Below the pieces are notes generated by a model, which was not told where the DNA came from, made no database searches, and saw only the letters and a program-made list of their open reading frames with translations. From positions 1,552 to 38,380 of IMG/VR virus record IMGVR_UViG_3300008116_000120: a DNA stretch of 36,829 nt; one strand, given 5' to 3'. The position numbers were made by a program, and so were the translations under genes. This DNA comes from a virus. Positions 14,791 through 18,886 of the stretch are shown in pieces; position 1 is the stretch's first letter; every line of letters starts with the position of its first letter.

Positions 14791-15684
14791 TTATAGTATA
14801 GCCTTATTCATAAAATCTATTTTAGCATATTGCTCATATTCTAGCAATGACCTTTTAGACCCGAATCCATCTGGCCCGATCCTATTATTTAAAATTATAT
14901 CACTAAGTTCTTTTTTAGAGGCTTTATCTAAACGAGCATATTCTTCAGGGAAATCTTGAATTACCTGCCTTCTTAAATTTTTTGCTCCTTGAGAATGATC
15001 GTAATATAAATGATATATATTTTGAGAGTCTGGGAGCATAAGATCATAGCCATGAGTATATAGTCTTATAGCAGTCAAGATTTCCTCGCCCCAAAAAAAT
15101 ATTTTGCTATTTGGTTGTATGTTGGCGATAGATCCTTCTGAAAAAATTGATGCTGCTGAAACAGATTTTGTGAATACGTTATTATCAAAATTGCCTACTG
15201 CTCTTTGATGAGGAACTAAATCATTTATAAAGCTAAGTTCTTTAACAAATTCTGTATACGCCACATGAGATTTATTATTTAAAATATTTAATAGGCCATC
15301 TTTATACTCATATGCTCCAGGGTAGGCCGAGAGTACTGGGTTGGCCCCATAAGATTTATTTCTTTCATAGTTTTTTATTAGATTTACATCCCAGTTAATT
15401 TCAAATCTGGAATGCGAGTCTATTTGAAAATAATAATCTTCTCCATTATAAAAACTATTTGCTATGTATCTAGAAACTCCAACCCCTAAATTATCTGGAG
15501 CCTTACTTACTTCATATTTTACATTAGAGAGTCCAGATAAATCAATATCCATTTTTTCATAATAACATAAATGAACTCCAAAATTTAAAAAATTTTCTCC
15601 AGAACTTTTATTTATAGCGTCAACAATAGTTCTTTTTAGCTCATAATCATGATAGGATGGAACCTGAATAAATATGCTAGACAT
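14791..15684 (-). CDS. glycosyltransferase, polypeptide GlcNAc-transferase-like
   Basis: This protein of about 297 residues resembles the Glycosyltransferase GlcNAc family (Pfam PF11397), whose studied members such as the Skp1 enzyme add GlcNAc to protein hydroxyl groups. The start holds FIQVPSYHDYELKRTIVDA. NLGVGVSRYIAN precedes the metal site in DYYFQIDSHSRF (D-x-H), followed by INWDVNLI. A later block is FFWGEEILTAIRLYTHGYDL, followed by a tyrosine/histidine stretch (NIYHLYYDHS). I use ATG 15684, a TAATG overlap with the Cys-rich gene; GTG 15690 is the alternative. The gene lies three genes after a Thr-rich fibre, so that fibre is a natural substrate candidate. Host glycans are the main alternative. 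Confidence 0.85.
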   Translation of the reverse strand: MSSIFIQVPSYHDYELKRTIVDAINKSSGENFLNFGVHLCYYEKMDIDLSGLSNVKYEVSKAPDNLGVGVSRYIANSFYNGEDYYFQIDSHSRFEINWDVNLIKNYERNKSYGANPVLSAYPGAYEYKDGLLNILNNKSHVAYTEFVKELSFINDLVPHQRAVGNFDNNVFTKSVSAASIFSEGSIANIQPNSKIFFWGEEILTAIRLYTHGYDLMLPDSQNIYHLYYDHSQGAKNLRRQVIQDFPEEYARLDKASKKELSDIILNNRIGPDGFGSKRSLLEYEQYAKIDFMNKAIL

Positions 15685-15926
15685 TACCACTTACCCAAAG
15701 GACATTGTGCTAATTTTAATTTAGTCTTTAAATTCATAAAACATCCACACTTTTTACATTGTGTAGTTAACTTAAAAAGCTCTGGGCAAGAATTACATAT
15801 ATCCATTCTTTCGGTTGCGACCGATTCTTCTGCATACTCTACATCACTTTTAACAAAATCCCATGGCCTAGTTTGGCCTAAATTCTTTTTATATTTTTGC
15901 CAAGGGCTTAGGTTTTCTTCGCTCAT
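15684..15926 (-). CDS. 80-residue Cys-rich zinc-binding protein
   Basis: The C-terminal half has six cysteines: MDICNSCPELFKLTTQCKKC, GCF and QCPLGKW. This order (C-x-x-C, C-x-x-C-x-C, C) suggests a rubredoxin-like or zinc-ribbon fold. The N-terminal half contains WQKYKKNLGQTRPWDFV and is charged. Similar small proteins ending CP-x-GKW occur near glycosyltransferase genes in other phages as I recall, but I have no function. It has an ATGA overlap with the preceding gene and TAATG with the glycosyltransferase, so the two are probably made in fixed proportion. Confidence 0.72.
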   Translation of the reverse strand: MSEENLSPWQKYKKNLGQTRPWDFVKSDVEYAEESVATERMDICNSCPELFKLTTQCKKCGCFMNLKTKLKLAQCPLGKW

Positions 15927-16144
15927 GACTGATTAATAAATCTTTCTCCATCCCAGGTCCATCCAAATTCTACTGGCAAACCGTCTGGAACTGGTACTAC
16001 TTTTGGATCAGATTGAAGGGCAGCAATTGCTCTTAATGCTATTTCGTTACTTGGTGCGGCTGGCATTTTTATTATAGCGCCAACTTCATCACCTATAACT
16101 AAAGCAAATTTTATTTCTGACACGGGTACATTATTTTCACTCAT
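15923..16144 (-). CDS. 73-residue protein, possible fibre accessory
   Basis: This small acidic protein has a strand (EIKFALVIGDEVGAIIKM), a helix (NEIALRAIAALQSD) and ends with PVEFGWTWDGERFINQS. The final W-x-WDGERF resembles the end of many phage fibre-associated accessory proteins, but no family is assigned. It follows a predicted promoter and has a good SD (AAAGGAGAATAA). It opens a small transcription unit with the Cys-rich protein and the glycosyltransferase. Confidence 0.7.
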   Translation of the reverse strand: MSENNVPVSEIKFALVIGDEVGAIIKMPAAPSNEIALRAIAALQSDPKVVPVPDGLPVEFGWTWDGERFINQS

Positions 16145-16166
16145 ATATTTATTCTCCTTTAAGATA

Positions 16167-16195
16167 ATATTACCATTTAAATATTTTTTTGTAAA
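16167..16195 (-). promoter_or_regulatory. predicted promoter for fibre-accessory/glycosyltransferase unit
   Basis: The minus strand has TTTACA (16195-16190), a 17-nt spacer and TAATAT (16172-16167), with TG just upstream of the -10. It lies in the 57-nt gap after the fibre gene, 22 nt before the ATG of the 73-residue gene. I see no terminator for the fibre here, so this is probably an extra promoter within the late operon. Confidence 0.5.
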
Positions 16196-16201
16196 TAGAT
16201 T

Positions 16202-18886
16202 TTAATAATAGCAGTATCCATCAAACCAATATCCGCTAGAATTATGACACTCTTGACAGAAGCAGTCCCCGCCGCAGAAATTATATTGTGTGCATGGTGA
16301 TGCTGTAGTAGTAGTGGTTGGTGCCTGGGTAGTGGTGGTAGTTTGTGGAGCCTGAGTAGTGGTAGTAGTTTGTGGCGCCTGAGTAGTAGTGGTGGTTGGT
16401 GCCTGGGTGGTAGTAGTGGTTTGTGGCTTATTAACATCAGGACAACAGGGTCCGTTTGGAGCCAATCCCGCTGGAAGACCAGTATACGGAGATCCACTAG
16501 GACAGCATTGTGGTGCATAATAATATGTACCCATATCAGAATATACACATGTACATGCTGTTGTTGTTGTGCTAGTTGTAGTGGTTGTAGTGGTTGTAGT
16601 GGTTGTAGTAGTAGAACAATTTATACAGGAGGGGTTTGCTGCATCTGTTAATGCAGCTTGATATGTAGTTCTATAAACAGTTTTCATTCTAGCATTAGAT
16701 GGCCCCTCTGTTATATCAGTTGGAAATGTTCCGCTTCCCGTAAATGGACCGCTTGCGGTTGGAGATTGAGTATAACATCCAGATAGCACATTACATGTAG
16801 AGGTTCCAACATAGTATGTAAATGTGTTACTCCATCTTGCATAAAATGTAATATTTGATGTTGGAACAAATGTTCCATTATCTTCAACTGAATATGTGTA
16901 GTCACCAGATATAGAATCTCTCCAATTTATAAAAGCATATCCAGTTCTTGTACCTGGGGATGGCGCAGTATGTTGTGTTCCAGCATTAAATGGTCCAGTA
17001 GTTCCTCCACCAGTTCCGCCATTTGCATTCCAATTTATTGTATATTGGGCTAAAAGAGCAGTTCCAGTTATGGTAGCTACTGCAGATGCCGAATATCCAG
17101 GTCTTGTCGCAAAGACGCTGACAGTTGCAGATTGCTGAGGAGCTAATCCTGTGACTGTAACTACGGAATTAACTCTAGAAACATAGCCATCAGAAGATTC
17201 AAGTACGTAGGTGTTGTCTAGGCTGTAATTTGTTATTGTAAAATAAAATCCATTTGATGTTTCTACTTTATCTGCTAAAATTGGAGTAGGTAATGCTGGT
17301 GGAGTAGTAGCTGTTCCAGTCATGTAGGCTGTCTCAGATGCTGAGTATCCAGGCCTTGTCGCAAAGACTCCTACAGTTGCAGATTGACCAGCACTAAGTC
17401 CAGTTACTGTAACTACAGAATTAGTTCTTGAAACAGAAACCCCAGAGTAATCTAATATGTATGTGTTATCTAAGCTATAGTTTAATATTGTAAAATAAAA
17501 TCCAGTTGTAGTTTCAACCTTATCACCTAGAATTGGAGTAGCCAATTGTGGAGGAATAGTTGCTGTTCCTGTTATATAGGCTATCTCAGATGTAGAATAG
17601 TTAGGTCTTGTTGCAAAGACTCCAATCGTAGCAGATTGTCCACTTGACAACCCAGTAACAGTTACGGTTGATCCAGATCTGGATGCAAAAACTCCAGAAT
17701 ATTCTAAGATATATGTATTGTTGGAGTCAAAATTTGATATTGAAAATGAGAATCCGTTTGTTGTCTCAACTAAATTAGAAAGAATTGGCTTAGGGACCCT
17801 TGGTCCAGATACTGAAGCTGTATTTGAAAAAGCATCTGTAGAGCCAGCCTGATTTGTAGCCCTAACTCTACAGCGTATTGGGCTTATGTATGACAATAAG
17901 AAATTTGATGGAGGAGAATATGTGGATGATGTAGCTCCAGAAATATTTAAAAATAAAGATCCTTGATCATTGTATTGCCACTGATATTGATATATACCAT
18001 CAGAGTCACCTGGATTCCAGGTTCCATTACTAGTAACAGAATATGTAGTTTCTCCAGCAATACCCGTGGTTGGAGATATTGTAGGTGGAATACTATTTGA
18101 TGGCAGTCCAACTGTAGATGCAGTAAGAGTATTAGACATATTACCATAATATCCAGGATATGTTGATGAATCGCCAGTTATAGGGATTACTTTAAAGTAA
18201 TAAGTTGAATTTAATGATAGTCCTGATGCTATATATGAAGTATCTGATACAACTGCTAAAGTTGAAAAAAAGATATCGTCAGTACTTTTATAAACTATAT
18301 AATTTGCCGCTCCAGTTGAAGTAGTCCAATTTAATTCAATAGAAGTTCCAGTTACAGCACCTTCTGATAAAACTATATCTGTTGGCCCTTGAATTGAAAC
18401 ACTTGTAGATGTAGAGTCACCAGATATAGATCCGTATGTAGCATCTACCTTAAATCTATACAGATTTAAAACATTTGGAGAAACATATAATCCTGGAGCA
18501 GTATTTTGTAGCAAATATGTTTTTGTATTACTTGATCCAAATGCTGGGTTTGTGATTGATCCAGAATTTATATCTGTCCAAGTAATTCCAGAATTTGTTG
18601 ACCATTGAAATTTATAAGTTAAAACTGGGGGACCAGGGGACCAGTAATAGTTTCTGCCAGTTAAGGTTTGTAGATTAGTAGTTAAATTAGTAGATTTAGA
18701 GATGGTAACAGTTTGCTGTATAGTTAAGCCTGAAGTAAAAAATGTTTTCCATACTCCAGCTACTTTTACTAATCCATCTACAACAGATCTCCATCCATTA
18801 TTAAATGGTCCTCCAGATGATCCTACTTTAACAAATATTTCAGATATATTTTTCCAAAGGGAGCCAGACTTTAAATGACTACTCAT
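16202..18886 (-). CDS. tail fibre with FN3/Ig-like, repeat, InlB-like and Thr/Cys-rich domains
   Basis: This 894-residue protein is a modular fibre or receptor-binding protein. The start (KSGSLWKNISEIFVKVG) is followed by Ig-like strands to about 160, a fibronectin III domain (about 168-255) and another Ig-like domain to about 360. Then come three 84-residue tandem repeats, an InlB B-repeat-like domain (YTINWNANGGTGGG ... ITFYARWS) and a Cys-containing linker. The last 140 residues alternate Thr runs, TTTTTQAP units and Cys clusters (PQCCPSG, GPCCPD, CGGDCFCQECH), ending GYCYY. The Thr runs would be an extended, O-glycosylatable stalk and the cysteines could crosslink or bind metal. It overlaps the previous gene by 8 nt. 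Adhesion to the host surface is the likely role. Confidence 0.85.
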   Translation of the reverse strand: MSSHLKSGSLWKNISEIFVKVGSSGGPFNNGWRSVVDGLVKVAGVWKTFFTSGLTIQQTVTISKSTNLTTNLQTLTGRNYYWSPGPPVLTYKFQWSTNSGITWTDINSGSITNPAFGSSNTKTYLLQNTAPGLYVSPNVLNLYRFKVDATYGSISGDSTSTSVSIQGPTDIVLSEGAVTGTSIELNWTTSTGAANYIVYKSTDDIFFSTLAVVSDTSYIASGLSLNSTYYFKVIPITGDSSTYPGYYGNMSNTLTASTVGLPSNSIPPTISPTTGIAGETTYSVTSNGTWNPGDSDGIYQYQWQYNDQGSLFLNISGATSSTYSPPSNFLLSYISPIRCRVRATNQAGSTDAFSNTASVSGPRVPKPILSNLVETTNGFSFSISNFDSNNTYILEYSGVFASRSGSTVTVTGLSSGQSATIGVFATRPNYSTSEIAYITGTATIPPQLATPILGDKVETTTGFYFTILNYSLDNTYILDYSGVSVSRTNSVVTVTGLSAGQSATVGVFATRPGYSASETAYMTGTATTPPALPTPILADKVETSNGFYFTITNYSLDNTYVLESSDGYVSRVNSVVTVTGLAPQQSATVSVFATRPGYSASAVATITGTALLAQYTINWNANGGTGGGTTGPFNAGTQHTAPSPGTRTGYAFINWRDSISGDYTYSVEDNGTFVPTSNITFYARWSNTFTYYVGTSTCNVLSGCYTQSPTASGPFTGSGTFPTDITEGPSNARMKTVYRTTYQAALTDAANPSCINCSTTTTTTTTTTTTTSTTTTACTCVYSDMGTYYYAPQCCPSGSPYTGLPAGLAPNGPCCPDVNKPQTTTTTQAPTTTTTQAPQTTTTTQAPQTTTTTQAPTTTTTASPCTQYNFCGGDCFCQECHNSSGYWFDGYCYY
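16309..16620 (-). repeat. Thr-codon microsatellite-like repeats in fibre C-terminus
   Basis: Stretches of ACA/ACC/ACT codons encode two Thr-rich blocks. The first (near 16560-16620) gives a run of more than 10 Thr. The second (near 16309-16430) repeats a TTTTTQAP-type unit about four times. Their near-repetitive DNA could change length by slippage or recombination, altering stalk length. Confidence 0.75.
17039..17794 (-). repeat. three tandem 252-bp coding repeats in fibre gene
   Basis: Units start at 17794, 17542 and 17290, each 252 bp (84 residues). Each encodes a copy of the pattern TPIL..KVET..GF.F.I.N, NTY.L, VTVTGL, QSAT..VFATRP.YS. Copies two and three are closest to each other, so the most recent duplication is probably the downstream one. 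Each unit is probably one beta-sandwich domain. Confidence 0.88.

Follow-up and report, generated by a model that had tools for sequence, protein, structure and literature searches.

We analysed a stretch of 36,829 nucleotides of viral DNA (positions 1,552 to 38,380 of IMG/VR record IMGVR_UViG_3300008116_000120; hereafter the window), in which a Thr-rich, Cys-rich tail fibre gene and a glycosyltransferase gene of family PF11397 share one gene run and form a candidate system for O-glycosylation of the fibre. The order on the minus strand is tail genes, fibre, a gene for a protein of 73 amino acids (aa), an 80-aa DUF6171 gene and the glycosyltransferase. The features, in window coordinates, are as follows.

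16202..18886, minus strand: Thr-rich, Cys-rich tail fibre and proposed acceptor, an open reading frame (ORF) of 894 aa whose N-terminus matches phrog_25859
16574..16612, minus strand: run of 13 Thr (Thr13, aa 759-771), a linker ahead of a small Cys domain
16427..16558 (boundaries approximate), minus strand: Cys domain CTCVYSDMGTYYYAPQCCP...CCPDVNK between Thr linkers
16304..16420, minus strand: five Thr5 blocks, four TTTTTQAP and one TTTTTASP (aa 823-861)
16205..16294, minus strand: C-terminal Cys cluster CTQYNFCGGDCFCQECHNSSGYWFDGYCYY
15923..16144, minus strand: 73-aa small protein between the fibre and DUF6171 genes
15684..15926, minus strand: 80-aa DUF6171 protein with six Cys (PF19668, E 9.5e-8; phrog_13558, E 3.6e-18)
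14791..15684, minus strand: PF11397 (GT60-type) glycosyltransferase, 297 aa from ATG or 299 aa from GTG 15690

A Thr-rich fibre and a glycosyltransferase in one gene run

The fibre is 17.9% Thr and contains 17 Cys. A preliminary description of this DNA had reported a Thr run of more than 10 residues, TTTTTQAP units and Cys clusters, all of which are present, with QAP following the first four Thr5 blocks and ASP the last. When the fibre sequence was shuffled 2000 times, the longest run of Thr reached 9 at most (mean 3.7), and no other window ORF of at least 100 aa on the fibre's strand has a Thr run longer than 3. Runs of at least 8 occur in one of 818 ORFs from 80 loci picked via a linked backbone gene. 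The runs are encoded by a mix of ACT, ACC and ACA codons and hence are not one slipped trinucleotide, which rules out strand slippage as their sole origin. Rather than forming a single stalk, they look like linkers round small Cys domains towards the C-terminal end. The Cys domain has homologues in loci with Thr runs (L001, L003, L004 and L105 of our collection) and in the enzyme-less L108, which has no Thr run. An fn3 match in the fibre falls below threshold, and a Flg_new domain is also matched.

Upstream of the fibre lie a 2071-aa tape measure, minor tail proteins and phrog_9983 tail genes, which make 'tail fibre' a fair name by position and from which we infer presence of the protein in the virion. 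The transferase is thus encoded by the virus itself, in the tail block of the record. Its placement three genes on, in the same direction and nearly gap-free, had also been described correctly: a 57-bp gap separates the fibre from the 73-aa gene, and the genes after that overlap. The 80-aa ORF overlaps the 73-aa ORF through ATGA, and the DUF6171 stop and transferase start overlap as TAATG, read directly in 'gtggTAATGtct'. This coupling makes ATG 15684 (297 aa) the likely transferase start, rather than the longer GTG 15690 (299 aa). Among isolates, the linked phosphoesterase is closest to those of actinobacteriophages (Rhodococcus 55%, Streptomyces), and an actinobacterial host is therefore plausible. 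The 317-aa tail protein, used as a backbone query, found no relatives.

Family, active site and predicted fold of the transferase

Against Pfam, the transferase matches PF11397 with an E value of 3e-34 (119.5 bits against a cut-off of 21, profile positions 98-350 of 352), in agreement with its original assignment to the family that includes the Skp1 N-acetylglucosamine (GlcNAc) transferase. The D-x-H site QIDSHSRF and the FFWGEE block on which that assignment drew are both found. Across 34 diverse relatives, H91 of the DxH site QIDSH is invariant and D89 nearly so, and E201 in the G-E-E acidic motif and the C-terminal His, H225, are likewise invariant.

The AlphaFold2 model (predicted local distance difference test, pLDDT, 94) places the enzyme with polypeptide transferases, as all leading Foldseek matches are mucin-type polypeptide N-acetylgalactosamine (GalNAc) transferases. 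Structural alignment with these enzymes by VIA-align gave Z 18.5-22.4 over about 250-265 residues. The best match reached Z 22.4 (261 residues, 3.3 Å), and the next family, chondroitin polymerase, 17.3, so that the structure search suggested in the preliminary description places the fold nearest to polypeptide O-transferases. By sequence, the enzyme profile gives only a weak match among solved structures, again a polypeptide GalNAc-transferase (E 0.15). The GT-A fold that the model shares with polypeptide transferases does not prove the acceptor.

An analysis of GT-A enzymes groups GT60 with GT27, both of which have DxH in place of DxD and glycosylate Ser/Thr of polypeptides (PMC7185993). The closest solved folds belong to the animal and Toxoplasma GT27 polypeptide GalNAc-transferases, which share the DxH motif and have Thr/Ser acceptors; the phage enzyme differs in its Pfam family, is only about 12% identical to them and has no lectin domain. 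GT60 enzymes initiate mucin-type glycans in Dictyostelium and Trypanosoma cruzi, and the T. cruzi enzyme puts αGlcNAc on Thr of Thr-rich mucins (PMC8724618, PMC3769586, PMC9472816), whereas the Skp1 enzyme requires hydroxyproline (PMC8724618, PMC3769586). The mucin-initiating GT60 enzymes of T. cruzi and the Dictyostelium Golgi may therefore be closer functional analogues than the Skp1 enzyme: they are GT60-type with DxH, and their acceptors are Thr-rich mucin domains (PMC3769586, PMC8724618, PMC9472816). Unlike these eukaryotic Golgi enzymes with cell-surface targets, the phage enzyme would be a soluble polypeptide transferase and is encoded beside a tail fibre.

Co-variation of enzyme and Thr-rich proteins

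We collected 67 viral loci that encode relatives of the enzyme. Among non-redundant close-clade loci with at least 1.5 kb of upstream sequence, 28 of 33 encode a Thr-rich or Thr/Pro-rich protein within 5.5 kb upstream (26 under a stricter cut). The repeats vary in type (Thr runs, TAGPTTTTTAGP, TTQATTQ, TPAPTPAP and TPTPTP), which indicates that the acceptor pattern is not one inherited string.

As controls, selected irrespective of whether they carry the enzyme, we took 80 loci found via the phosphoesterase gene, which is located ~1.3 kb past the transferase, and further loci found via tail-gene relatives; the set was deduplicated, and enzyme-bearing loci with the same backbone were added. On this shared backbone, Thr runs of at least 8 occur in eight of nine loci with the enzyme and in none of the 56 without it (Fisher 1.8e-9, with no correction for relatedness), a case-control comparison, since the enzyme-positive rows come mostly from the enzyme search. 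The enzyme appears or disappears at least six times on the phosphoesterase tree, each time in step with the Thr run; five of the changes are on well supported branches, none contrary, and these five cannot by themselves pass 0.05 (sign test p 0.0625). Enzyme presence thus tracks acceptor sequence, and it does so across enzymes 38-72% identical and across dissimilar fibres. The survey of co-occurrence, which the preliminary description had named beforehand as a possible refutation, accordingly spoke for the proposal.

Close relatives illustrate the pattern. L105 and L106 are 95% identical over 11 kb downstream; in L106 the transferase gene is absent and the Thr11 run of L105 is replaced, and the spacer and DUF6171 genes are retained but diverged. 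Enzyme-less L108 has the same Cys domain with TAPAP in place of L105's Thr11. The window's own enzyme-less relatives, L083 and L084, have an almost identical phosphoesterase protein, and their fibres lack Thr runs.

We propose, with a probability of roughly 0.75, that the locus is a module by which the phage carries out mucin-type O-glycosylation of its own tail fibre. Late in infection, one gene run would give rise to both the fibre and the PF11397 (GT60-type) transferase, a soluble protein of the cytoplasm. The transferase, with a metal-dependent GT-A fold, DxH and C-terminal His, would draw a UDP-activated sugar from the host pool, by family an N-acetylhexosamine and probably GlcNAc, and would transfer it, before or during virion assembly, to Thr hydroxyls in the Thr-run linkers on either side of the small Cys domains close to the fibre tip. 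A dense coat of O-glycans would hold these linkers in an extended form and protect them from proteases, and could alter binding by the tip or its recognition. The idea that the enzyme acts on its own fibre, as first put forward, fits the co-occurrence, and the stalk named there as its target gives way to what look like C-terminal linkers.

Several observations weigh against this proposal. Five close-clade loci (L016, L036, L039, L041 and L046) lack any Thr-rich protein within 5.5 kb in the available sequence. A distant viral clade (26-30% identity), several members of which lie near terminase genes, has no Thr-rich neighbours. The same backbone in L122 carries a distant enzyme (18% identity) and no Thr-rich protein. 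Viral proteins with long Thr runs mostly occur without the enzyme, which was present at two of 62 viral Thr-run loci; Thr runs therefore do not require it, and the notion that every Thr run needs a PF11397 enzyme is ruled out. Most bacterial PF11397 members, in a survey of 80 loci, are without a Thr-rich neighbour, and because most of these loci lack a Thr/Pro-repeat neighbour the bacterial members probably have several acceptors. Finally, the fibre C-terminus, spacer, DUF6171 gene and enzyme differ as one block between L105 and L106, so that part of the association could be due to linkage alone.

This last point, together with the many Thr-run proteins that lack the enzyme, raises the alternative that fibre tips are exchanged as a cassette in which the enzyme gene is a passenger, with some other target for the enzyme and the Thr runs travelling along as flexible linkers. 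The fibre 3' end is indeed a hot spot with alternative tails (FFPPHFPP, SPAVSPAV, SPPVNPP, TPTP, intein-like) and varied neighbours. Mere hitch-hiking sits poorly, however, with the complete absence of long Thr runs from the 56 enzyme-less fibres of this phage family, with a pairing that spans such divergent enzymes and fibres and recurs with unrelated bacterial Thr/Pro-repeat proteins, and with a predicted fold that is that of polypeptide transferases, and we consider it unlikely.

Modification of the host surface is a common role of phage glycosyltransferases, and the enzyme might instead alter a host glycan or surface protein, blocking superinfection or changing receptors; some bacterial PF11397 genes adjoin genes resembling secreted fimbria-type proteins. 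The location of the gene in a late tail-gene block and the covariation of its presence with fibre sequence make this quite improbable. We give still less credence to DNA or nucleotide glycosylation, in which the enzyme would decorate a modified base. Two jumbo phages, XacN1 and RAS14, have distant homologues located away from fibres, that of XacN1 near DNA polymerase and carbamoyl transferase genes, but the window enzyme is in the tail block, covaries with the fibre and has polypeptide transferases as its best structural matches. The reading suggested by the XacN1 and RAS14 homologues was set aside, as these are distant and in a different context.

Glycosylation of virions by phage-encoded enzymes is not without precedent, and the preliminary description's remark that it knew of no described phage system of this form needs qualification. 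In mycobacteriophages (Che8 and others), phage-encoded glycosyltransferases have been linked to glycans on the phages' own virion proteins (Freeman 2023, cited in PMC11256854). As cited there, the resemblance lies in a self-encoded glycosyltransferase, with actinobacteriophages also the closest phosphoesterase isolates of the window phage; the reported acceptors are capsid proteins, whereas here a Thr-run tail fibre adjoins the enzyme gene. What is new relative to that precedent is the different acceptor type and a recognisable acceptor code. Our literature search, made without most subscription journals, found nothing on PF11397 in phages or on phage mucin-like fibres.

If the proposal is correct, mucin-type O-glycosylation, usually taught as a process of the eukaryotic secretory pathway, has a compact cytoplasmic version in phages, which swap the enzyme together with matching acceptor domains. 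Phage tips would then be modelled with glycosylated linkers in place of bare loops, and self-decoration would offer a route to altered adsorption, stability and recognition. The system could also serve as a small set of bacterial tools for attaching O-glycans densely to repeats of choice, and the unassigned bacterial PF11397 enzymes and the phrog_4417 family (below) would gain testable functions.

Neighbouring genes and related loci

The 80-aa protein scores 32.8 bits against PF19668 (gathering score 27). Its TAATG coupling to the enzyme, pointed out at the start, is confirmed, but the protein is not specific to the enzyme: DUF6171 occurs in many phages without a PF11397 enzyme and is retained in enzyme-less loci such as L106 and L108, which rules it out as a dedicated enzyme partner. 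We would not count it among the components of the glycosylation chemistry. Among enzyme-less loci, DUF6171 is commoner beside fibres with Cys-rich ends (p about 0.006-0.009, uncorrected), which is suggestive only of a link to Cys-rich fibre tips. The 73-aa protein has no Pfam or PHROG match; many relatives have a positional counterpart of 66-145 aa in the same slot, and it is perhaps a fibre-assembly helper. In one Thr-run cassette (L010:6711-8008) the slot before the transferase holds a DUF7164 protein (4.5e-18); the fibre of this cassette has no Cys, and the adjoining DUF6171-like protein is missing some Cys residues.

A sister clade of cassettes with TPTP repeats also carries a 2-oxoglutarate (2OG)-Fe(II) oxygenase (PF13640, 4e-20), in most cases together with a radical SAM/SPASM protein. 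In L019-L033 and L036-L042, the oxygenase, the radical SAM/SPASM gene and sometimes JmjC-like oxygenases lie between a TPTP-repeat Cys-rich protein and the transferase. The oxygenase is present in nine of ten Thr/Pro-repeat loci against one of 16 Thr-run loci (Fisher 3e-5; the Thr/Pro loci are largely one clade). Oxygenase-type genes also stand by enzyme-less TPTP, SPAV and SPPVNPP fibres on the same backbone (L159, L131 and L134). A natural guess for the TPTP clade, by analogy, is a hydroxylate-then-glycosylate route like that of Skp1, in which a prolyl hydroxylase is followed by Gnt1, a GT60 enzyme, in the cytoplasm. The window locus resembles the Skp1 pathway in its PF11397-type enzyme, likewise predicted to be cytoplasmic. 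It differs in that no 2OG-Fe(II) oxygenase or prolyl-hydroxylase-type gene was found within 4.5 kb on the same strand, and in that the fibre would present Thr hydroxyls directly, on multi-site repeats rather than at one Pro.

Among the other loci of the 62 with viral Thr runs, a phrog_4417 gene lies behind the Thr-run gene in eight, a GT2-like gene in one and a GT-B-like gene in one. Proteins of phrog_4417 are about 300 aa long with an invariant D100-x-D102, and in 46 of their 59 non-redundant loci the gene immediately before them is Thr-rich. The pattern of phrog_4417 behind Thr-rich phage structural proteins was noted among loci L363-L442, L183, L194, L205, L215, L241 and L444. In Lactobacillus phage iLp84 it comes after a 125-aa decoration-like protein with a Thr run and a capsid protein whose end is a Thr7 run; in bIL285 and Planchet the adjoining capsid proteins are not Thr-rich. 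The family has no significant Pfam or NCBIfam assignment, a profile built from 34 sequences retrieved no convincing relative of solved structure and did not match the PF11397 alignment, and a structure predicted from five sequences (pLDDT 50) was too poor for use. Its DxD-like motif and position lead us to guess that it is a glycosyltransferase. A tentative extension, to which we give slightly under even odds, is that phages widely make mucins, with several unrelated enzyme families (PF11397, phrog_4417, GT2 and GT-B types) encoded directly behind Thr-run structural proteins glycosylating them and TPTP repeats also receiving prolyl-hydroxylase-like and radical SAM modifications.

In bacteria, Thr/Pro-repeat proteins are encoded directly upstream of the PF11397 enzyme in Thauera (TTEPP) and Pseudoduganella (PTDTPA, ATTEP). 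Nostoc loci combine PqqD-like proteins with Thr-rich tails (one of them Thr17), an oxygenase-like gene and the PF11397 enzyme, and may be peptide-modification clusters; at L352:4968-8938 and L315:5319-8800 the enzyme lies inside a protein of 600-650 aa.

We further note a second, divergent PF11397 gene (7.7e-28) at L016:1516-2595, in the cassette of a close-clade enzyme. Enzyme-less relatives of the fibre in L071, L072, L098 and L099 end in FFPPHFPPFFPP repeats, an unusual low-complexity tail of Phe, His and Pro. In L153 and L157 (2120-6718), the fibre has FPYFPPF and NTINTI repeats and an intein/hedgehog-like end (CHVVGTKIQMSDG...MAHNLSAKT).

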